A DNA stretch of 64,000 nt from Desulfuromonadales bacterium (GTDB taxonomy: Bacteria; Desulfobacterota; Desulfuromonadia; Desulfuromonadales; Syntrophotaleaceae). This document shows, in pieces, positions 31,620-42,017 of this stretch (positions within the stretch are counted from its first letter, which is position 1; each line of letters begins with the position of its first letter). Where the stretch lies: the NCBI GenBank assembly GCA_013619105.1, contig JABXKU010000007.1, positions 1-64,000 of the forward strand. The letters are read 5' to 3'. The notes below the pieces were generated by a model. That model worked only from the letters and a program-made list of their open reading frames with translations, did not search any database and was not told where the DNA came from. The position numbers were made by a program, and so were the translations under genes.

Positions 31620-32057
31620 TTGAAAAGTGAAGATGTACCTCAGGATAAGGCCCTTTTCGGCGAGTGGCACGAGATCTGTTACGCCCTAGACCGGGACGGG
31701 AATTATATGCTGGCTCCCAGTGCCGGCTGGGACCCCGCCAATGTAGCCAATCTGCAGGCTTGGGAGACGATTTCAGAAGATATCAGCCGGGCGATGAAGG
31801 CCGTGTGGGCCGGTGAGGCCAGTCCCTTGGCCTTTCACCTAGCCCGCTGCCAGATGGATGTCGGCCTGCTGGCTAGCTACGTGCAACTGGCGCGCTGGCG
31901 GGTGAAGCGCCACCTGCGCCCTAAAGTCTACGCCCGGCTCAAACCAGATTTGCGCGAACGCTATGCGCGGGTCTTCGATGTGACCGCCGAAACACTCGAT
32001 TCTCTTCCCGACAAGCCGGAAATCCCTGTGCCTCTGGAAGACAACGATAAGGACTGA
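31620..32057 (+). CDS. Unknown protein, first gene of the acyl-carrier/export cluster
   Basis: The 145-residue product is mostly helical and soluble, with tryptophans and charged residues (GEWHEICYALDRDG, ASPLAFHLARCQMDVGLL, RWRVKRHLRPKVYARL) and an acidic tail. I do not recognise a family. The start is TTG at 31620, with GGAGG six bases before it. It ends five bases ahead of the BtrH-like gene, so the two are surely co-transcribed and may act together, perhaps as a partner or substrate adapter of that enzyme. Confidence 0.75.
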   Translation: MKSEDVPQDKALFGEWHEICYALDRDGNYMLAPSAGWDPANVANLQAWETISEDISRAMKAVWAGEASPLAFHLARCQMDVGLLASYVQLARWRVKRHLRPKVYARLKPDLRERYARVFDVTAETLDSLPDKPEIPVPLEDNDKD

Positions 32058-32062
32058 AACCT

Positions 32063-33061
32063 GTGAATATCGATTTTGCCCATCGCCAGTCGGCCCATTG
32101 CGAAAGCGGGGTTACGGCAAACCTGTTTATGCACCACGGTATTGAAATGTCCGAAGCGATGGCCTTTGGCCTCGGGGCGGGGCTGTTTTTTGGGTATCTG
32201 CCCTTTGTGCGGATCAACCACCTGCCACTGGTGACTTATCGCTGCGCCCCGGGCGCGATTTTCAAGAAAGTGACCAAGCGTCTTGGTGTGGAGGTTGTTC
32301 GGCGCAAATTTCGCGATCCTGAGCAGTCAATGAAGGCGCTTGATGCAGCCCTAGAGCAGCAGATACCGGTGGGGCTGCAGACCGGAGTTTTCTGGTTGCC
32401 CTATTTTCCGCCGGCTTTGCGTTTTCATTTTAATGCCCACAATCTGGTGGTTTGCGGTCGCGAAGGAGATCATTACCGCATCAGCGATCCGGTTCTCGAT
32501 CAGCCGGTTCTCTGCCCCAGCGAAGACCTGATGCGGGCACGTTTCGCCAAAGGTGCCTTGGCGCCGAAGGGGGCGATGTATTACCTCAAAAACGTGCCGG
32601 CGCAGATCGATCTGCGGCCGGCTATCAGAAGCGGAATCCGTGATGTGGGGCGGAGCATGGTCAAGGCGCCAGTGCCGATAATCGGCGTTCGCGGCATGCG
32701 TTTTCTGGCCCGGCAGGTCGAAGGATGGCCGCAAAAGCTCGGTCAGAAACGGGCCATACAGTATCTTGGACACCTTATCCGCATGCAGGAAGAAATTGGC
32801 ACCGGAGGCGGAGGGTTTCGCTTCATTTACGCGGCCTTCTTGCAGGAGGCGGCCGAGTTGCTGGAACTGCCGCGATTGGCTGAACTCTCCCGTGAGCTGA
32901 CCGAAATCGGCGATCGCTGGCGAGAGTTGGCCCTGTTCGCTGCCCGTCGCTGCAAGGGGCGGGGTGAAGAAGAGACCTCCTTTCCTGCTTTGGCCGCTAT
33001 TCTGCGTGATTGTGCCGACCGCGAGGAAAAATTGTTCCGCTGTCTGCTGGCCGAAATATGA
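32063..33061 (+). CDS. BtrH_N/DUF4872-type protein, possible acyl carrier-dependent acyltransferase
   Basis: The N-terminal domain reads RQSAHCESGVTANLFMHHGIEMSEAMAFGLGAGLFFGYLP, the BtrH-type pattern with Cys13. It is followed by a His in HFNAHNLVVCGREGDHYRISDP, together a Cys-His-Asp arrangement of a papain-like fold. In butirosin biosynthesis BtrH moves an acyl chain from an acyl carrier protein to an aminoglycoside. The C-terminal half, with RAIQYLGHLIRMQEEIGTGGGGFRFIYAAFL, fits DUF4872. The start is GTG at 32063, with AAGGA nine bases upstream. A carrier protein gene lies in the same cluster. The acceptor is unknown. Confidence 0.82.
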   Translation: MNIDFAHRQSAHCESGVTANLFMHHGIEMSEAMAFGLGAGLFFGYLPFVRINHLPLVTYRCAPGAIFKKVTKRLGVEVVRRKFRDPEQSMKALDAALEQQIPVGLQTGVFWLPYFPPALRFHFNAHNLVVCGREGDHYRISDPVLDQPVLCPSEDLMRARFAKGALAPKGAMYYLKNVPAQIDLRPAIRSGIRDVGRSMVKAPVPIIGVRGMRFLARQVEGWPQKLGQKRAIQYLGHLIRMQEEIGTGGGGFRFIYAAFLQEAAELLELPRLAELSRELTEIGDRWRELALFAARRCKGRGEEETSFPALAAILRDCADREEKLFRCLLAEI

Positions 33062-33095
33062 TCGTTTTTATGCCTGGTTTTTACGGTGAGACAAG

Positions 33096-33878
33096 ATGAC
33101 CGTCAGGCCACCGGGGGGGCAGGGTGAGTCTGCTTCGGAGATCGTTGCGGCGACGGGTCTAGTATATCGATATCCGGGCAGTGCGCAGCCGGCTGTGGTC
33201 GATTTGTCTCTGTCGGTCCCTGAAGGAGAGGTGTTCGGTCTGCTCGGGCCCAACGGCGCGGGTAAAACCACCACCATCGCCATGCTGACAACTCTGCTGC
33301 GTCCCGCCGGGGGTAGCTTGCGGGTATGCGGTGTCGACCTCTTGCGCAAACCGCACCAGGTACGGCGGCTGATCGGCCTGGTTCCCCAGGACGTCGCTCT
33401 TTATCCGACCTTGACCGTCAGGGAAAACCTGCGCTATTTCGGGCGTTTGTTCGGCATGGGGGGTAAGGACTTAAATCGGCGGGTAGAGGAATGTCTCGAT
33501 TTGGTCGGATTGCGGGACCACGGCGCGCTGCGCATCGAAACCTGTTCCGGTGGCATGAAACGTCGCGCCAACCTGGCGGCGGGGATTGTCCATCGCCCGC
33601 GGCTGCTATTTCTCGACGAGCCGACCGTGGGCATTGACCCCCAGTCTCGCAACACCATTCTGGAAAACCTGGCCCGTCTGAGACAACAGGGGATGACCCT
33701 GATTTATACCACCCATCATATGGAAGAAGCGCAGCAACTGTGCTCCCGGCTGGCAATTATCGACGGCGGTAGAGTGATCGCCGCAGGCCTTCCCGAGGAA
33801 CTGATAGCCGCCGGTGAAGGCTGCCGGAATCTGGAAGATCTTTTCTTGCAATTGACCGGACGCCAGTTGCGGGATTAG
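33096..33878 (+). CDS. ABC transporter ATP-binding protein
   Basis: The 260-residue ATPase has Walker A GPNGAGKTTT, the Q-loop VPQD, the signature CSGGMKRR, Walker B LLFLDEPTVG and the switch His in YTTHHMEEA. It resembles the exporter-type DrrA/NatA group that pairs with ABC-2 permeases. The ATG at 33096 has GGTGAG before it. It lies between the BtrH-like gene and the permease (37 bases apart), so it supplies the power for export in this cluster. Confidence 0.94.
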   Translation: MTVRPPGGQGESASEIVAATGLVYRYPGSAQPAVVDLSLSVPEGEVFGLLGPNGAGKTTTIAMLTTLLRPAGGSLRVCGVDLLRKPHQVRRLIGLVPQDVALYPTLTVRENLRYFGRLFGMGGKDLNRRVEECLDLVGLRDHGALRIETCSGGMKRRANLAAGIVHRPRLLFLDEPTVGIDPQSRNTILENLARLRQQGMTLIYTTHHMEEAQQLCSRLAIIDGGRVIAAGLPEELIAAGEGCRNLEDLFLQLTGRQLRD

Positions 33879-33915
33879 CCCGGATCGGACCGGGCAGGGA
33901 AGGCACCTTTTAGCG

Positions 33916-35247
33916 ATGAAACAATTCTGGGCGACATTCTGCAAAGATCTGCTAGTTCTGAGCCGTGACCGTACCGGCCTGCTGGTTCTGTTCTTCATGC
34001 CTGCGGTACTGGTGCTGGTGGTCTCTTTGGTGCAGAACAATATCCTTGAAACCACCGGTGCGAGCGGCATGCGTGTCCTTTTTGTCGACGAAGACGGGGA
34101 TATGGTCGCAGCAAAGGTGCGGGAACGCCTCGGTGCGGTGGATTCGTTGAAGTTGGTGGAGCGGGTAGGCGACGCTCCGCTGACCGAGGCGACAGCCCGT
34201 CGGCTGGTGGCCAAAGGGGATTATCAATTTGGCATCGTCATCCCCGCCGGGGCGAGTCGGATTTTTCGAGTACGGTCCCGGCAGCAGGCTAGAAATGCTT
34301 TCGGCAAAAAGCAAAGGAATGCATCGCAGGTCGCGACAGAGCCTATGCCGCAGCTATTGGTCTTTTTTGACCCGACGGTGCAGGGTATTTTTCGCACCGC
34401 TGTGACCGGTTCTCTTAGCCAGGTGTTGTTGGGAATCGAAACCGAAGAAAAAGGCCAGGAATTGAGTCGGGCTCTTAATACTGTTCTTGCCGCCCGAAGC
34501 CGTGGCTTCCTGATGGGCGGGACGATCCTCGGCGAGAAAGAATTGCACCGTTTGCTGGTTGTGGACAGCCTGCTTTCCGTGCGAGAACAACCTGCCTCCG
34601 ATAGACCCGATCGGCCGATGCCCAATGCCGTGCAGCAGAATGTTCCGGCCTGGGCGCTGTTCGGCATGTTTTTCATCGTCGTGCCCCTTTCGGGAGCCCT
34701 GCTCCGTGAACGACAAGAAGGGACTCTGCTGCGGTTGCGTACCCTGCCGGTTTCCTACGGCGTCATTCTGCTTGGCAAGATCGCTGCTTTTGCCTTAGTG
34801 TGCATGGTGCAATTTGGCCTTATGTTGGCAGTTGGTAAGTTCTTGTTGCCGCTCTTTGGCACCCCGGTCCTCGACCTTCATGGCCGACTTCCGTCTCTCT
34901 GCCTGCTTGCTCTGTGCGCTGCCTTGGCTGCTACCGGTTTCGGTCTGTTGGTTGGAACCGCTGCCCGCAGTTTTGAGCAGGCCTCCATGTTTGGCGCGGT
35001 TTCGGTGGTGGTGGCTGCCGCCCTGGGAGGGGTCATGGTGCCGGTTTACGTGATGCCCCGTGAGATGCAGGCGATTAGTGCCTTTTCTCCTTTGTCCTGG
35101 GGGCTCGACGGATTTTTAGAAATTTTTGTGCGCGGCGAGGGCCTGTCGGCGGTGGCGGATAATATCTTTTTTCTGCTGGCCTTTTTTGTCGTAACCTTGG
35201 GGTTGTCTTGGTGGGTATTCCACCGCCAGGGACGAACCGGCTGTTAA
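33916..35247 (+). CDS. ABC-2 type permease
   Basis: The 443-residue protein has one N-terminal membrane segment (TGLLVLFFMPAVLVLVVSLVQNNI), a roughly 200-residue periplasmic part, and about five C-terminal membrane helices (ALFGMFFIVVPLSGALLRERQEGTLLRLRTLP, KIAAFALVCMVQFGLMLAVG, LCLLALCAALAATGFGLLVG, and others). This is the ABC-2 permease design of lipid, polysaccharide and drug exporters. It follows the ATPase gene at 37 bases and precedes the acyl carrier protein. The substrate is not known; the acyl carrier context suggests an acylated metabolite or lipid. Confidence 0.92.
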   Translation: MKQFWATFCKDLLVLSRDRTGLLVLFFMPAVLVLVVSLVQNNILETTGASGMRVLFVDEDGDMVAAKVRERLGAVDSLKLVERVGDAPLTEATARRLVAKGDYQFGIVIPAGASRIFRVRSRQQARNAFGKKQRNASQVATEPMPQLLVFFDPTVQGIFRTAVTGSLSQVLLGIETEEKGQELSRALNTVLAARSRGFLMGGTILGEKELHRLLVVDSLLSVREQPASDRPDRPMPNAVQQNVPAWALFGMFFIVVPLSGALLRERQEGTLLRLRTLPVSYGVILLGKIAAFALVCMVQFGLMLAVGKFLLPLFGTPVLDLHGRLPSLCLLALCAALAATGFGLLVGTAARSFEQASMFGAVSVVVAAALGGVMVPVYVMPREMQAISAFSPLSWGLDGFLEIFVRGEGLSAVADNIFFLLAFFVVTLGLSWWVFHRQGRTGC

Positions 35248-35431
35248 TCCCTGGGTATCTGCAATCCGATTTTGCCTGTTATTATCGTTTCTCCGGAAAC
35301 GGCCATTTCTCTCAATCCTGGCGTTAATCTGTCCACTTGTTTCGATGGCGTAGGCGTCTTCGTTTCCGCGCAAGCGCTCGACGTCCTTAACCCAGGGAAA
35401 AGTGGTTCGTTGCCCATATAGGTGCTACGCT

Positions 35432-35459
35432 GTGTCCATCTGGGGTTCCGGATAGACAC
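35432..35459. repeat. Second copy of the hairpin repeat (GTGTCCAT...AGACAC)
   Basis: GTGTCCATCTGGGGTTCC is followed by GGATAGACAC, an imperfect inverted repeat nearly the same as the element at 10894-10922. It lies in the 258-base gap between the permease and carrier protein genes. The arms and the central GTTTCCG-like core are shared. Confidence 0.55.
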
Positions 35460-35505
35460 TGTTTAATAGTTTGAATTGTAAATAGCTATCAGGAGTGGAT
35501 AAGTA

Positions 35506-35778
35506 ATGGTTCAGACACTTGAATTGACATTGGAAAAAGAGCTAAAAGAGTTGATTATTGATGCCTGCAACGTGCCCGACGCACCGGAGGATTTTCCGGA
35601 TACTGCGCCGCTGATCGGACCGGATTCCCCCTTGGGACTCGATTCTCTTGATGCTGTGGAGCTGGTAGTAGCGGTGCAGAAACGCTTCGGTGTTCGTATC
35701 GGTGGGGAAGACAGCAGTCGGGAAGTGCTTGAGTCGATCGAAACTCTGGCGGCTTTCATCCGTACAGAGAAGTCATAA
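35506..35778 (+). CDS. Acyl carrier protein
   Basis: The 90-residue acidic protein has the phosphopantetheine site LGLDSLDAVEL, with the attachment serine at Ser47, and helices typical of an ACP. It is separate from the usual fab cluster, so it is probably dedicated to this pathway. The start has GGAGTGG upstream. A 258-base gap after the permease suggests its own promoter or a link through the hairpin repeat. A convergent KAS III-like gene and a radical SAM gene lie on the other strand. Confidence 0.93.
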   Translation: MVQTLELTLEKELKELIIDACNVPDAPEDFPDTAPLIGPDSPLGLDSLDAVELVVAVQKRFGVRIGGEDSSREVLESIETLAAFIRTEKS

Positions 35779-36020
35779 GAGTAGCTGGAGCTTGAAGCAA
35801 CAGAAAGTGGTTGTTCGACTGGTCTTGCTGGTCGGGGCTCTTTAGGCATAAGCCTATGTTCAATATCTTGCCGAGCCAGTGGTACGCCTATTCTTGCCCC
35901 GGGCCGAAAACGGATCGCACGTTACGTCCCCCCGTGGATGGAGTAGGTCAGGGGGGGCGGAAAAGTTGTTAACGGCAAGGTCACGTATAAAAATCCTGTG
36001 TAGGAAAAATGACCGCATGA

Positions 36021-36066
36021 AATAAAAAAGGGAGCGACGCCTAACGGGTCGCTCCCTTTTTTTATT
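36021..36066. terminator. Bidirectional terminator between the carrier protein and ketosynthase genes
   Basis: GGGAGCGAC and GTCGCTCCC form the stem, flanked by A-run and T-run. It separates the convergent ACP and KAS III-like genes. In the 240 bases after the carrier gene I see no other gene. Confidence 0.92.
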
Positions 36067-36091
36067 CGTATCGATGGAACAATGGCTCGGA

Positions 36092-37240
36092 TTATACAGC
36101 TGTCAACAGCATGTAACACATTGAAAAGCGACCGCTTTCTGGGATGAAACAGAGAATCTTCTGTCCCTTTTTGATTTTGCCAGAGCGAAAGAACTCCTCG
36201 AGGATAATGAAGATAGAGGCGGCGCCGGTGTTGCCTTTTTCGCTCAGGTTGGTGAACCATCGTTCCAGAGGAATTTCGAACCCCATATCCTTCATTCTTT
36301 CGAACAGTTGCAGGCGGAAATAGTCCGATGAGTAGTGGGGCAGAAACCAGTCGATTTCATCCGCCTTGAGGCCGTATCGGTCCATCAAGCGAGGCAAGGT
36401 GCGGTCGGCGGCGGTGATGACGATCTCTCGGTTGAGTAGTTTGACGTCTTGTTTGATCAGGAAGGCGCCCTTTTTTTCGGCCTCAGACTGAGAAGGCTGG
36501 TCCCGCCAGCCGGTCAAGGAGCCGTCTTCATTTTTTGTCGCCCCGGCATACATGCAGGTTTCCAGTTCGTTGGCGAAGGAAACCAGATCGATCCAGTCGA
36601 TGCGCAAGGACAGCCGATCTGCTGCCGGTTGATCTGTGAGGAAAGCGGCCCCGGCGCCGTCAGAGAGCATCCAGCGCAGAAAGTCGGCCTCAAAGGCCAA
36701 TACTGGTTGGGTTTCCAGGGCTTCGGCCTTGCGCGTATCCACCTGGTCACACAGTTCCGAGCGTAGAAAGGTAGAGGCCAGTTCCGATCCGGTCGCTACA
36801 GCATTACGGGTCAGGCCGAGGGCGACATTCATGTAGGCATACTTCATTGCCGCCATGCCCGACATGCAGATCCCCGCAGCGCTTACCACTTCACAGGGAG
36901 ATCCGCCGATTTCTCCATGAACCATCTGCCCGTGCCCGGGCATGACTTGATCGGGGGAGGATGTTCCACAACCGAGACATTCGATGTCTTTTGCGGAAAA
37001 ACCGGGAAAAGGCTGCAGCTGGCGAATTGCCTCGGCGGTCATCCCGGCATTGGTGTGAGTGGTTTTTCCCGATTGCGGATCGATAGCATAGTGGCGGGTC
37101 TTTATCCGGTTGTTGCGCAGGATGATCCGCCTGGTTCGTGAGGGAACCTGGTTTACCATACCCAGGACCTGTTCCATCTGATCGTTGGAAACCGGGGCGT
37201 TTGGCAAAAAGGTTGCCAGGTCGGTGATATAAACGGCCAT
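36092..37240 (-). CDS. KAS III-like beta-ketoacyl-ACP synthase
   Basis: The 382-residue thiolase-fold enzyme has the catalytic Cys125 (SAAGICMSGMA), the His in LPHYSSDYF and the Asn in GNTGAAS, so the triad is intact. KAS III enzymes condense an acyl-CoA with malonyl-ACP to begin a chain. The protein is longer than FabH (about 317), which is usual for secondary-pathway KAS III such as DarB-type. The ATG at 37240 has AAAGGAA seven bases upstream. It is 16 bases after the radical SAM gene. The dedicated acyl carrier protein is 300 bases away on the opposite strand. Confidence 0.9.
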   Translation of the reverse strand: MAVYITDLATFLPNAPVSNDQMEQVLGMVNQVPSRTRRIILRNNRIKTRHYAIDPQSGKTTHTNAGMTAEAIRQLQPFPGFSAKDIECLGCGTSSPDQVMPGHGQMVHGEIGGSPCEVVSAAGICMSGMAAMKYAYMNVALGLTRNAVATGSELASTFLRSELCDQVDTRKAEALETQPVLAFEADFLRWMLSDGAGAAFLTDQPAADRLSLRIDWIDLVSFANELETCMYAGATKNEDGSLTGWRDQPSQSEAEKKGAFLIKQDVKLLNREIVITAADRTLPRLMDRYGLKADEIDWFLPHYSSDYFRLQLFERMKDMGFEIPLERWFTNLSEKGNTGAASIFIILEEFFRSGKIKKGQKILCFIPESGRFSMCYMLLTAV

Positions 37241-37256
37241 TTCAGTATTCCTTTTA

Positions 37257-38552
37257 CTACAGTCTGGCACCGTCGTGACCAGTTTTGATCAGGGCGGCGA
37301 ACTTCTCGTAAAACGTCCTCTCCTCAAGGAAGGTCGGGACGACGGCATTGGTCAGGGTATAGTAATCGAGGTCGTGGTTGGAGATCTGGTCCTTCATGGT
37401 TGCATACAGGGCGGTGCCAGGCAAAGGGGTTAGAACCGTGTACATGGGCAGGTCGATAGGGTTCTCTTCGGTCCAGGCGGCCAGGGTGTCGAACCGGCGT
37501 TCGTCGTAATCTGGCGAAATGATGAAGTCGCCGACGATGGTCAAGCCGATCTGGCGCAAAATCCGGATGGCCTCCCGGTTGACGGCGGCGTTGCACGCCT
37601 TGTTCATCCCTTCGAGAGCCGAGTCGCTTACCTCTTCCAGACCGATAATCACAGCCCGCAGACCGATTCCCTTCCATAGCTGCAGCAATTCGGGGTAGCG
37701 CACAACGGTATCGGAGCGGACGTCGGCCACGAAATGCTTGCGGATGCCTTCATCCCGGATCGCCTCCGCCAAAAGCCGTGCGTGTTCGGGGTCACCGAAG
37801 GTGTTGGCGTCGACTAGACGGATAACCGGGGTGTGCTCCAGACAGCGGATATCACGCAGCACAGTTTTGACGCTGCAGGTCAGGTAACGCCCGCCGGTTA
37901 TCGGGGCGATGCAACAGAAGGAACAGTTGAAGGGGCAGCCGCAGGCTGAGGCGACAAAGCCCATCTCCAGGCCCAGGGCCCGCAGAGTGTAATCGGGGCG
38001 GTATTTTTCAACCAGGTCGTAGCGGGGGGCCTGTTCCTCTACCAGGTCTTCTGGACCGTAGCTTCTGACCCGCCAGTTTAGCGGTCGGTTGGGGTTGGTG
38101 GCCGCGATTCCTGCGATATCAGCCACTTCTGCGCCTTTTCCCAAACGATCTACCAGTTCACGTAGGGATTTTTTTCCCAAGCCGACGACCACGAAGTCAA
38201 TTTCCGGCCGGTTGAAGAATTCTGGGTCATTGGAAGCGTGTACCCCCCCAACGACCACCCTGGCGCTGCAACTTTCCCTGACTTCTTGCGCCATGCGCAG
38301 TACCGTGTTGGCTTCGCAGGTCATGGCAGTAAAGCCGACCAGGTCGGGGGCAAAGCCGGCCAGTTCGGCAGCCAGGGCGCCCGGTTCCACCTTTAGGTCG
38401 AGGATGCGCACCTCATGCCCCGTCAGGTTTCCGGCCAGTACCTCTAGGGCGAGGGGTTCTCCGCGGAAAATTTGTTTCAGCGAATCGATGCCGTAGCGTT
38501 CTTCTGGGATGCTACGGCCGCAGTTGGGGGGATTGATCAGAAGAATTCGCAT
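37257..38552 (-). CDS. B12-binding radical SAM protein
   Basis: Residues 1-130 form a cobalamin-binding domain beginning MRILLINPPN, with GFTAMTCEANTV and VVVGGVHASNDPEFF. The radical SAM cluster motif CPFNCSFC (CxxxCxxC) follows near residue 205, then the barrel. Such proteins methylate or rearrange unreactive carbons in lipids, antibiotics and cofactors. The ATG at 38552 has AGGA before it; the longer frame lacks support. It is directly upstream of the KAS III-like gene and was probably made in one transcript with it. Its substrate is not known. Confidence 0.9.
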   Translation of the reverse strand: MRILLINPPNCGRSIPEERYGIDSLKQIFRGEPLALEVLAGNLTGHEVRILDLKVEPGALAAELAGFAPDLVGFTAMTCEANTVLRMAQEVRESCSARVVVGGVHASNDPEFFNRPEIDFVVVGLGKKSLRELVDRLGKGAEVADIAGIAATNPNRPLNWRVRSYGPEDLVEEQAPRYDLVEKYRPDYTLRALGLEMGFVASACGCPFNCSFCCIAPITGGRYLTCSVKTVLRDIRCLEHTPVIRLVDANTFGDPEHARLLAEAIRDEGIRKHFVADVRSDTVVRYPELLQLWKGIGLRAVIIGLEEVSDSALEGMNKACNAAVNREAIRILRQIGLTIVGDFIISPDYDERRFDTLAAWTEENPIDLPMYTVLTPLPGTALYATMKDQISNHDLDYYTLTNAVVPTFLEERTFYEKFAALIKTGHDGARL

Positions 38553-38744
38553 TATTCCTGAAGTGGTTGTCTGCTGGTGGCCGAGGTTGATGGTTTTACT
38601 GATAAAAAACAAAAAGACAGAGCATTAGAACGACCTTGGATAGTAGCGATATGCGCTGGCGATGTCAATTTTAGGAGACGGAAAAATGAAAAGAAGATGC
38701 TGAAGCAACGGGAACAGGACATGCGAGTGCCAGCTGGGAAGGAA

Positions 38745-39344
38745 TTACCTTTGGCGTTTGCCTAGTTCGGCCAGGGGACGTACCTCTGAGATGCGGCAGA
38801 TGGCCAGTTGGCGGATGGAACGGGCAGCGAACCGGCCAGCCGTGGTCCTGATACGTTCGACCATCTGGTCGAAACGCTCTCCCTGGGTTTCCATGGCCGT
38901 CAGTTCTAGGGTAAGACGCCCCCCCTTCCAGTCCAGCACCGTGCTTCCCGGTCGGCAGGCCAGTAGCATCGCCTTGGGATTGGTCGCCAGGTTGGCCCCG
39001 GTTCGGTTGTCGGCCAGGCCGATCCAGATGTGGTCTTCGTCAGCCATGAAAGCCGAGCCGATGACTGCGGAATTGGGGGTGCCATCAGAGCCGGCGGTGC
39101 TGAGGGTGGTAATCCGGTCCGGGGAATTGATTAATTCAGCAAGGTCTTGATGATTCACAAAGCTAACCTCCAGGTCAGTGTGCCTTTTGTTGTTCGGCCA
39201 TAGGATTAGGACCTGTTGCCCATTCTGCCAGCAATCCATGTCGCCGATGCACGACAGCCTATTATGCCTGTCTTTGGGCATGAAGTGCAAGGTTTCCGGT
39301 TCTGGATCCAGGTGTAGAGGGTGTGTTTCAATAAAGTCGGACAT
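38745..39344 (-). CDS. Pyridoxamine 5'-phosphate oxidase-fold flavoprotein
   Basis: The C-terminal two thirds (DLAELINSPDRITTLSTAGSDGTPNSAVIGSAFMADEDHIWIGLADNRTGANLATNPKA) fit the FMN-binding split-barrel family. An N-terminal extension of some 60 residues has conserved-looking aromatic and cysteine residues (LSCIGDMDCWQNGQQVLILWP). Family members include oxidases, reductases and heme-degrading proteins; the function is not fixed here. The gene runs in the same direction as the radical SAM gene, 190 bases upstream of it. It may belong to the same pathway, but the spacing does not prove this. Confidence 0.75.
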   Translation of the reverse strand: MSDFIETHPLHLDPEPETLHFMPKDRHNRLSCIGDMDCWQNGQQVLILWPNNKRHTDLEVSFVNHQDLAELINSPDRITTLSTAGSDGTPNSAVIGSAFMADEDHIWIGLADNRTGANLATNPKAMLLACRPGSTVLDWKGGRLTLELTAMETQGERFDQMVERIRTTAGRFAARSIRQLAICRISEVRPLAELGKRQR

Positions 39345-39569
39345 AGTTGGATTTGGGGGTTGTGGGCAGTAGGCCGAGCCCGGACATGAGGGCTTTTTCG
39401 TTGACCGGTCTAATGAAGGGGTGATAGCTTAATCCGCCCAAGGAAAGGTTATGGGTTGGCAGAAACGTGTGTGGGTGCCACAGGACCTCGATTGAAGGTG
39501 TCTGCGGCGGCGACCCTGGAAAACATCTTCTCACCATCTCACCGATATCACCCCCACAAGGAGAGAGTC

Positions 39570-40085
39570 TTGCTAAACAAATCATTACTGTTCGGCCTTT
39601 TGGTCCTGTTTATTACTTTGGCCTCTGGTTGCGTAACCACAAAGGCTCCCAATCAATCAACTGAGGCAGTAACGTCGGATGGAATGATTTCGGTTCTGTC
39701 TCTCCGTGGTGACACCAGCAGTATGACTGAGGATCAAGTTGTTGAGTTGCAACGGGTAGGAACCTGGATGGATCGCGACATAATCAAGCAATTGAAGCGA
39801 GCCGGTTATTCAGCAAAACTACTCAAGTCCCGAGGGGATTTCAGTCGTGCCGGTCATCTGCTAGTCATTAGCGTTGATAATTTTAATCCCGGTAACCGGG
39901 CGGCCAGAGTTTTCGTCGGTTTTGGTGCTGGTGCCGCTTCTCTGGATTTGGATTACCAACTTATCAATAGTCGGAACAAAAGAGTGGCACGGTGGAAAGA
40001 TGGAGTAGGGTCAAGCAAAGGGGGCACCTATTGCGCTCAAACCCTCAATCGCAATACCATCAAGCAGCTAAAAGAAAAATTATAA
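39570..40085 (+). CDS. Lipoprotein of the DUF4410-like type
   Basis: The start is TTG at 39570, with AAGGAG just before it; the longer frame to 39456 lacks support. The signal peptide NKSLLFGLLVLFITLASGC ends in a lipobox (LASGC). The mature part (VISVDNFNPGNRAARVFVGFGAGAASLDLDYQLINSRNKRVARW) resembles small outer-membrane or periplasmic lipoproteins of the DUF4410 group with unknown function. A terminator follows. It diverges from the flavoprotein gene. Confidence 0.78.
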   Translation: MLNKSLLFGLLVLFITLASGCVTTKAPNQSTEAVTSDGMISVLSLRGDTSSMTEDQVVELQRVGTWMDRDIIKQLKRAGYSAKLLKSRGDFSRAGHLLVISVDNFNPGNRAARVFVGFGAGAASLDLDYQLINSRNKRVARWKDGVGSSKGGTYCAQTLNRNTIKQLKEKL

Positions 40086-40689: not shown

Positions 40690-41811
40690 TCAGCTAGCGG
40701 CCAGTCGGTCGAGAAAGGCGCTGATCAGGGGAGTGAATTTTTCTGGTTCGATCAAGAAAGAGTCGTGACCGTAGTCCGAATCGATCAGGTGATATTCCAC
40801 CGGCTTGTCGAGCTTTTTAAGAAGGGCCACCATCTCTTCGCTCTGGTTCGGCGGATAGAGCCAGTCGGAGCTGAAGGCGAACCACAGGGACGGGCACGTG
40901 ATGCGGGACAGAGCCTCTTGGCGATTGGCGAAATTCCAGGAGACATCGTAGAGGTCGAGGGCCTTGGCCAGGTAGAGAAAGGCGTTGGTGTCAAAGCGGT
41001 CGATAAAGTTCTGGCCGTTGTATTCAAGGTAACGTTCTACCTCGAATTGGCCGAAAAAGTCGAACATGCCATCCCGCGCCGAAAAGCGCCGGCCAAACTT
41101 GAGGTTCATCGAGGCGTCGGACAAAAACGAAATGTGACCGATGGCTCGGCCCAGAGCCAGCCCGTCCGCCGGTGGATGTCCTGGCTTGTAATTGCCCTTT
41201 TTCCAGAGAGGGTCGTTATAGATGGCCTGTCGGGCCAGGGCGTTGAGGGAGATGGCCATGGGCGAGGTGCGGCCAGTGCCGGCAATGGGGATGATGGAGC
41301 GCACCCGTTGGGGATAGAGCACGCCCCATTCCAGGGCTTGCATGGCCCCCATACTGCCGCCGATGACGGTCAGCAGGGAGTCGATGCCCAGATAGTCGAT
41401 GAGCAGTTTCTGGGCGCGCACCATGTCGCGAACCATGATGACCGGAAACGATAAATTGTAGGGGCGGTCGGTGCGGGGATTGATGCTGGTTGGCCCCGTT
41501 GAACCACCACAGGAACCGATGACGTTGCTGCAGATGACGAAATAGCGGTCGGTATCGAGGACCTTGCCCGGCCCGATCATGTCGTCCCACCAGCCCGGCT
41601 TGCGATCGTCCGGCGTATGACGGCCGGCCGCGTGGGCATCGCCTGTCCAGGCATGGGTGACCAGGATGGCGTTAGAGCGGTCCGGGTTGAGACGGCCATA
41701 GGTTTCGTAGGCGAGTTTCAGCGGTGAGGCGAGCAGGCGACCACTTTCCAGGGGCAGCTCGACATCGAAGCTTGCGTATTCGGTTGTGACGATTCCTACC
41801 GATTGATTCAA
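40690..41811 (-). CDS. metX: Homoserine O-acetyltransferase
   Basis: MetX acetylates homoserine with acetyl-CoA for methionine synthesis. The alpha/beta-hydrolase nucleophile is in GGSMGAMQ, with the catalytic Asp and His later ([10 protein letters not shown], and DYGHDSFL). The frame is open to 41832, but that TTG lies in the terminator T-run. I choose the TTG at 41811 ([16 protein letters not shown], a usual start) with GGAGG eleven bases upstream. The gene is controlled by a SAM riboswitch with a terminator directly before it, as its product is needed when methionine is low. Confidence 0.95.
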
Positions 41812-41830
41812 GGCTTTGTCGGCCTCCAAC

Positions 41831-41866
41831 AAAAAAAGGCCCCTTTGCGGATTGCAGGAAGGGGCC
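41831..41866 (-). terminator. Riboswitch-controlled terminator before metX
   Basis: On the minus strand GGCCCCTT and AAGGGGCC form the stem, followed by a run of T residues ending immediately before the metX start region. It lies about 40 bases after the SAM aptamer, as expected for the expression platform. Confidence 0.85.
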
Positions 41867-41905: not shown

Positions 41906-42017
41906 CATCCTCATCTCTCCCCATGCGGGGCAGGAATTAGCACCTGACATTCGCCGGCGGCGAATCGGTTGCTGTGGTTTCACAGGGCCTTCCCCTCCAC
42001 CACTCGCGATAAAGATG
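41906..42017 (-). promoter_or_regulatory. SAM-I (S-box) riboswitch aptamer upstream of metX
   Basis: Read on the minus strand, the leader has P1 arms CATCTTTATC and GATGAGGATG that pair fully (10 bp, with three GU pairs). It contains the S-box core GTGGTGGAGGG, a TGAAACCACAGCAACC-like stretch, and the hallmark GGTGCTAATTCCTGC. This is the SAM-I aptamer, which closes a terminator when S-adenosylmethionine is plentiful and so turns metX off. The match is clear from consensus alone. Confidence 0.93.

Follow-up and report, generated by a model that had tools for sequence, protein, structure and literature searches.

The dar locus and its genes

The window analysed here is a stretch of 64,000 nucleotides from a Desulfuromonadales bacterium (assembly GCA_013619105.1, contig JABXKU010000007.1, positions 1–64,000 of the forward strand), and the locus under study occupies positions 31620–39344. 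Judged by gene content and order, the part between 31620 and 38552 is a dialkylresorcinol (dar) locus, in which darD, darE, darF, darI and darC are arranged as in Azoarcus and converge on darB. It is a variant rather than a canonical member, because the slot of darA is filled by a gene encoding a B12-binding radical SAM (S-adenosylmethionine) enzyme. The dar/flexirubin system itself is known; what is new is the B12 radical SAM gene beside darB.

The domains were called by comparing Pfam and NCBIfam profile scores with the family cut-offs. The Azoarcus gene names are used, so that the DarG of NCBIfam corresponds to DarD and the DarH of NCBIfam to DarE. The locus comprises the following features.

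31620–32057, plus strand: DarD (NCBIfam DarG family), 145 amino acids; NF053536 (DarG_fam) 141 bits, cut-off 70
32063–33061, plus strand: DarE (NCBIfam DarH), BtrH_N/DUF4872 protein of 332 amino acids, predicted BtrH-fold acyltransferase; NF053550 498 bits, cut-off 300
33096–33878, plus strand: DarF, ATPase of an ABC transporter; PF00005 109 bits; same position in the dar order of relatives
33916–35247, plus strand: DarI, ABC-2 permease; PF12698 112 bits; kept after DarF in relatives
35506–35778, plus strand: DarC, stand-alone acyl carrier protein (ACP) with a DSL phosphopantetheine site; PF00550 32 bits; kept after DarI
36030–36064, no strand assigned: hairpin between the converging darC and darB, with flanking A- and T-runs, read by eye as GGGAGCGACGCCTAACGGGTCGCTCCC followed by TTTTTTT
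36092–37240, minus strand: DarB, StlD/DarB cyclohexanedione-forming ketosynthase; NF005293 595.6 bits, cut-off 450; open frame to 37270
37257–38552, minus strand: B12-binding radical SAM enzyme in the DarA slot; PF02310 and PF04055; open frame to 38612
38745–39344, minus strand: PNPOx_N flavoprotein, optional neighbour; PF01243 33 bits

The later starts of the two longer frames, the ATG at 37240 for darB and the ATG at 38552 for the radical SAM gene, are favoured by alignment with relatives. The hairpin is probably a two-way terminator, an assignment made by reading the letters rather than from a terminator score. A preliminary description of this DNA had listed the same eight genes with their strands, and its domain calls were confirmed. 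It had regarded the product of the first gene as an unknown protein; the gene was correctly recognized, but its product does have a family, the DarG family of NCBIfam. DarD is kept ahead of DarE in most dar loci of relatives. The PNPOx flavoprotein is not considered part of the core: among the 39 radical SAM-type loci whose sequence extends far enough to judge, it adjoins the radical SAM gene in 9.

The succession DarD, DarE, DarF, DarI, DarC is that of the known dar loci. In the arcuflavin locus of Azoarcus sp. BH72, darB, darD, darE, darF, darI and darC stand in the same relative order as in the window, and darE is described as BtrH-like, darB as the dialkylresorcinol (DAR) cyclase and darA as the DAR aromatase (PMC3949708). 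In Azoarcus darA lies beside darB and a radical SAM gene is not listed, whereas in the window darA is missing and darB is placed on the opposite strand, converging on darC. The flexirubin clusters of Chitinophaga and Flavobacterium (PMC3992019) combine DarB, DarD, DarE, DarF, DarI and an ACP with a polyene cluster containing tyrosine ammonia-lyase and coumarate-CoA ligase, as is the case here. They differ in being of the DarA type, their DarB having no adjoining B12 radical SAM gene, and the FlxA-, FlxB- and LolA2-like proteins of the window's genome stay under the flexirubin cut-offs.

The product of darB is closest among solved structures to StlD of Photorhabdus (PDB 5gk0, 437 bits), which it matches over its full length. 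The Cys-His-Asn triad of StlD is retained as Cys135, His312 and Asn347 (numbering of the 392-amino-acid frame), which are invariant across 39 homologues; unlike stlD, the window gene adjoins a radical SAM gene. The narrower model NF053539 is missed, with 498 of the required 550 bits. The FabH models score only 82.9 and 66.4 bits and neither reaches its cut-off (249 and 292.1). Both a FabH identity of the synthase and a ladderane identity of the window proteins were rejected on profile scores.

The product of darE is a candidate carrier-dependent acyltransferase of the BtrH type. Its predicted structure has a papain-like fold that matches AziU3, CtaG and CcbD, and Cys13, His126 and Asp142 are invariant across 38 homologues. 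The fold and the Cys-His-Asp triad are shared with BtrH, CtaG, CcbD and AziU3, while the identity to solved structures amounts to 12–18%. A search of solved structures by sequence returned no relative of DarE; the matches came from fold comparison. Aminoglycoside genes were seen neither among the open reading frames (ORFs) of the window between 27000 and 46000 nor at the aryl-polyene cluster of the same genome described below; the remaining genome was not searched for them. Genes for an amine acceptor were likewise not seen.

The arrangement of these genes is not due to chance. DarE is present in 44 of 136 genomes of the order, and DarB and the radical SAM gene adjoin each other in 56 of the 57 genomes carrying both, which agrees with the earlier view of a single conserved system. 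The same view held that the acyl chain is carried on the ACP, which is supported; that it is transferred by the BtrH-fold enzyme, which is probable from the sequence; and that the ABC-2 exporter belongs to the set, as it does. Taken as a whole, however, the proposal of an undescribed system that assembles, transfers and exports an acyl chain, the chain being started by a KAS III and accepted by a lipid or a polyamine, is very improbable, although its parts list is correct. DarB is an StlD-type ring-forming ketosynthase (595 bits against 83 and 66 for FabH) rather than a chain starter. The genes make up the dar portion of flexirubin/arcuflavin biosynthesis, their content and order matching the published pathway (PMC3949708, PMC3992019); NCBIfam models exist for DarB, DarD and DarE, and the partner polyene cluster is present in the genome.

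A radical SAM gene in the place of darA

The absence of DarA, and the presence of the radical SAM gene in its slot, had been overlooked in the preliminary description. No match to DarA was obtained in Pfam or NCBIfam, and an alignment model was therefore used for its detection. Plasmid records searched for DarA context yielded relatives of DarB, and one of the three records opened had a DarA-like neighbour (L078; L, G and C denote our labels for loci, genomes and contigs). As such records proved poor for this purpose, DarA was taken from Chitinophaga pinensis, and the alignment was built over 12 loci starting from the locus of this species (L133). The model found no match at an E-value of 0.001 in the genome of the window. 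Among the 136 genomes of the order exactly one strong match was obtained, in G098.

A phylum-wide sample of 522 distinct genomes, fragmented assemblies among them, contained DarB in 74. The radical SAM gene is present in 57 of these genomes and DarA in 14, none has both, and three have neither. Two of these three (G056 and G086) are cases of contig ends, and in the third (G181) darB carries an in-frame stop near the end of a contig. The two partners occupy the same slot, immediately upstream of darB and on its strand. This holds for the radical SAM gene in 56 of 57 genomes (median gap 20 nucleotides) and for DarA in 13 of 14 (median gap 48 nucleotides), the one remaining genome of each kind having partner and darB on separate contigs. 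Among the genomes with this subfamily of radical SAM proteins, G087 alone lacks an intact DarB, its copy being broken. In G034, darB is located approximately 100 kb from darD-E-F-I-C, and the radical SAM gene has been relocated alongside it. A separate set of 74 DarB-bearing dar loci, a few of them fetched twice, gave the same picture, with DarA in 43, a radical SAM gene beside DarB in 28, both in none and neither in three.

Genome counts are not independent of descent, and independent evidence is provided by the partner switches on the trees. In the DarB tree the radical SAM-type proteins form one clade (100/99), with DarA types on both sides of it, and the well-supported branches force at least three changes of partner. 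Within the radical SAM-type clade two DarA-type entries are found: L099, which stands beside L109 and L111, and G098, which stands beside G042. In the DarA tree the DarA proteins of both are nested within the Bacteroidota clade (100/100), and their DarB proteins are native. The combination of a Bacteroidota-type DarA with a native DarB indicates that DarA was horizontally acquired into the position expected for the radical SAM gene in two lineages. L099 is the cleaner of the two cases, as darA lies directly upstream of darB on a single contig.

The proteins on either side of the exchanged step bear almost no trace of the partner type. It is separated by none of the DarB columns (39 homologues) and by one DarE column (38 homologues). 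This near-absence of partner-specific residues suggests that the enzymes acting before and after the step handle the same compounds. The gene identities, the genome-wide absence of DarA, the exclusivity, the shared slot, the switches and the intact active sites were all read from sequence.

The literature searched, which excluded the original DarB paper (Fuchs 2013) with its list of 89 strains, contained no mention of a B12 radical SAM gene associated with DarB. In that literature the co-mentions of "dialkylresorcinol" and "radical SAM" concern, by title, bartoloside and cylindrocyclophane enzymes, and "flexirubin" and "radical SAM" are not mentioned together.

The aryl-polyene cluster and the proposed pathway

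An aryl-polyene cluster is located in the same genome on another contig (G000:C160; loci L091 and L093). It encodes an aromatic amino acid lyase (458 bits to FlxA, below the cut-off of 700), a 4-coumarate-CoA ligase-like protein (259 bits), an FlxB-like reductase (307 bits, below 340) and an LolA2-like protein (92 bits, below 125). The cluster also contains genes for an MMPL exporter, a thioesterase, a dehydratase, a ketosynthase, a ketosynthase-like chain-length factor, an ACP, an acyltransferase, a glycosyltransferase, PagL and a phytoene-desaturase-like flavoenzyme. In relatives such as G106 and G135 the polyene and dar genes form one contiguous run, which is divided over two contigs in the window's genome. 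The run begins with ketosynthase, ammonia-lyase, dehydratase, LolA, MMPL, thioesterase, three radical SAM, glycosyltransferase and acyltransferase genes. It continues with ACP, ketosynthase, chain-length factor, PagL and darD-E-F-I-C, followed by the converging darB and radical SAM gene. On the contig of the window's genome, three B12 radical SAM genes (a TIGR04072-type, an HpnJ-like and an unnamed one) likewise lie in a row at approximately 64.4–88.1 kb, an arrangement conserved in relatives of the order.

The TIGR04072 family, whose name refers to ladderane lipids, has a member over the cut-off at G000:C160:78709–80037. Members over the cut-off occur in 39 of the 44 DarE genomes of the order versus 9 of the other 92, and in 28 of the 39 the gene lies on the DarE contig at a distance of 7.6–10.4 kb. 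Similar type II fatty acid synthase (FASII) clusters with radical SAM genes have been described in Desulfotalea, Geobacter and Pelobacter, and no ladderanes were detected in Desulfotalea (Rattray 2009, PMC2649909). According to a survey from 2023, the ladderane clusters of Desulfobacterota are still of unknown function (PMC9902471). The TIGR04072 protein is what the window's genome has in common with the ladderane-type clusters. The cluster on C160 differs from them in having an ammonia-lyase, a 4-coumarate-CoA ligase and dar genes, which point to an aryl polyene and not to a ladderane. This gene content suggests that the ladderane-like clusters of the order are aryl-polyene/dialkylresorcinol clusters.

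We consider it probable that the locus encodes the dar half of a flexirubin-type pathway, in which the B12 radical SAM enzyme would carry out the step of DarA, DarE would form the ester with the polyene, and DarF and DarI would export it. The product is expected to be a flexirubin-like aryl-polyene/dialkylresorcinol ester. The formation of a cyclohexanedione by DarB and of a resorcinol by DarA and DarB together is taken from homologues and the literature (PMC3949708, PMC3992019), where a heterologous host expressing darB and darA of Chitinophaga pinensis produced the DAR of flexirubin (PMC3992019). The radical SAM reaction, the acceptor of DarE and the export of the ester are inferred.

The first reaction would be the joining of two fatty-acid-derived thioesters into a 1,3-cyclohexanedione, catalyzed by DarB. 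The radical SAM enzyme, which had been thought to act on the acyl chain, probably acts on this ring product instead and would convert it into the aromatic 2,5-dialkylresorcinol by a two-electron oxidation. A 5′-deoxyadenosyl radical would abstract a ring hydrogen of the cyclohexanedione, the substrate radical would give an electron to the iron-sulfur cluster or to B12, and the resulting dienone would tautomerise to the resorcinol. The C160 cluster would supply an aryl-polyene chain, whose starter would come from the ammonia-lyase and the 4-coumarate-CoA ligase and whose assembly would take place on an ACP. DarE, through its Cys-His-Asp triad, would transfer the ACP-bound polyene onto a phenol of the dialkylresorcinol, which is the likely acceptor in place of the lipid or polyamine suggested earlier. 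The resulting ester would be exported by DarF and DarI, as suggested by the gene content.

The window protein combines a B12-binding domain with a radical SAM core, whose CX3CX2C motif is invariant across 16 homologues. It stays far from the named families: HpnR, the hopanoid C-3 methylase, is the nearest model (180.5 bits, cut-off 650), and the scores for BchE (108 bits, cut-off 481) and TIGR04072 (59.5 bits, cut-off 360) are likewise too low. The main rival to an aromatase is a B12-dependent C-methylase acting on the cyclohexanedione or on an alkyl arm, with a methylated cyclohexanedione or resorcinol as the product. DarA would be superfluous for a ring blocked by methylation, and the mutual exclusion would be accounted for; the characterised members of the B12 radical SAM class are mostly methylases. 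However, the HpnR score is far under its cut-off. The AlphaFold model of the protein (pLDDT 83.6) matches the methylases TsrM, MgmA, CysS and TokK and the non-methylating OxsB and AprD4 about equally well, so that structure cannot separate oxidation from methylation. The class-specific residues, one in DarE and none in DarB, make the substrate and the acceptor look unchanged. DarA has taken the slot by a native DarB in two lineages, which is simplest if DarA and the radical SAM enzyme share a step. We regard the methylase as unlikely, though it is the strongest of the alternatives.

Less likely still is that aromatisation is performed by another, unlinked oxidoreductase, or does not take place, the product remaining a cyclohexanedione and the radical SAM enzyme being a minor tailoring enzyme. 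Cyclohexanediones themselves serve as signals in Photorhabdus (PMC4414361), and two flavoproteins are at hand, the phytoene-desaturase-like enzyme of the polyene cluster and the PNPOx protein of some loci. Both were rejected as the missing aromatase, since the desaturase-like gene occurs in DarA-type clusters too and the PNPOx gene stands beside the radical SAM gene in just 9 of 39 loci. Moreover, the radical SAM gene is present in 57 of the 60 DarB genomes without DarA, directly beside darB, which would not be expected of an optional tailoring gene.

Several points weigh against an aromatase role of the radical SAM enzyme. The aromatase role of DarA, with which it is compared, is derived from the literature. 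Its nearest named family is a methylase, albeit far under the cut-off, and methylation is the usual activity of characterised B12 radical SAM enzymes. In G098, darA and darB lie on different contigs. Contamination is an unlikely source of this darA, as the G+C content of its contig (62.7%) agrees with that of the darB contig (62.4%), and the Bacteroidales locus that holds the closest DarA has 44%; the sequence upstream of the G098 darB contains no radical SAM gene. In the only genus with both kinds, represented by two species, G485 and G504 (loci L201 and L202), DarB changed along with its partner: the two DarB proteins share 54.6% identity, compared with 77–83% for three long neighbours, and the pair thus shows a change of a cassette. 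Finally, DarA is also found in 13 of 395 sampled genomes of other members of this largely anaerobic phylum, so that the need for an oxygen-free enzyme does not suffice to explain the swap, and the argument from oxygen is weak.

On balance, we lean towards a B12 radical SAM aromatase that converts the cyclohexanedione into a resorcinol and is unrelated to DarA, an anaerobic flexirubin pathway, and an aryl-polyene/dialkylresorcinol nature of the "ladderane-like" clusters of Desulfuromonadales. The exchanged enzyme suggests an unrecognised way to make an aromatic ring in these anaerobes. Flexirubin-like pigments have long been taken as a marker of Bacteroidota, and the proposed pathway predicts them in anaerobic Desulfobacterota. 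B12 radical SAM enzymes that do not methylate, whether established or presumed, are few and include BchE, OxsB, HpnJ, PbsB and a proposed ladderane synthase (PMC13142503). BchE, OxsB and HpnJ share the B12 and radical SAM domains with the window protein and are not orthologous to it; their oxygen-free oxidative or ring chemistry is the proposed parallel. If the assignment is true, a non-radical enzyme and a B12 radical SAM enzyme have been naturally interchanged at a single, defined step, which would provide a clean test substrate and question. It would also give a specific answer to what the ladderane-like clusters outside anammox bacteria produce, which was left open in PMC2649909 and PMC9902471.

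Neighbouring genes and related loci

A gene for a DUF4410 lipoprotein-like protein (39456–40085, plus strand) follows the PNPOx gene and is found again next to the radical SAM gene or darC in several relatives, namely L037, L038, L052, L056, L061 and L066. Further downstream, an SAM (S-box) riboswitch (77.2 bits, 41908–42015, minus strand) precedes a homoserine O-acetyltransferase-like ORF (40690–41832, minus strand). It represents ordinary methionine control and has no relation to the dar locus.

Other combinations of these genes were encountered among the related loci. In three loci of Bacteroidales (L140, L150 and L169) DarD-E-F-I occur but DarB and DarA do not. Upstream of darD these loci have another radical SAM gene, which matches only weakly, and approximately 9 kb away they encode an ACP and a second, divergent DarE. 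The plasmids of Pseudoalteromonas (L076) and Prevotella (L077) carry a divergent DarB with neither DarA nor a radical SAM gene adjoining, and may belong to producers of cyclohexanediones only. On the Streptomyces linear plasmid NZ_CP108315.1 (L078), genes for an ACP, DarB and the DarA-like protein are followed by those for a monooxygenase, fabF, a P450 and fabG, possibly an actinomycete resorcinol pathway without DarD-I.

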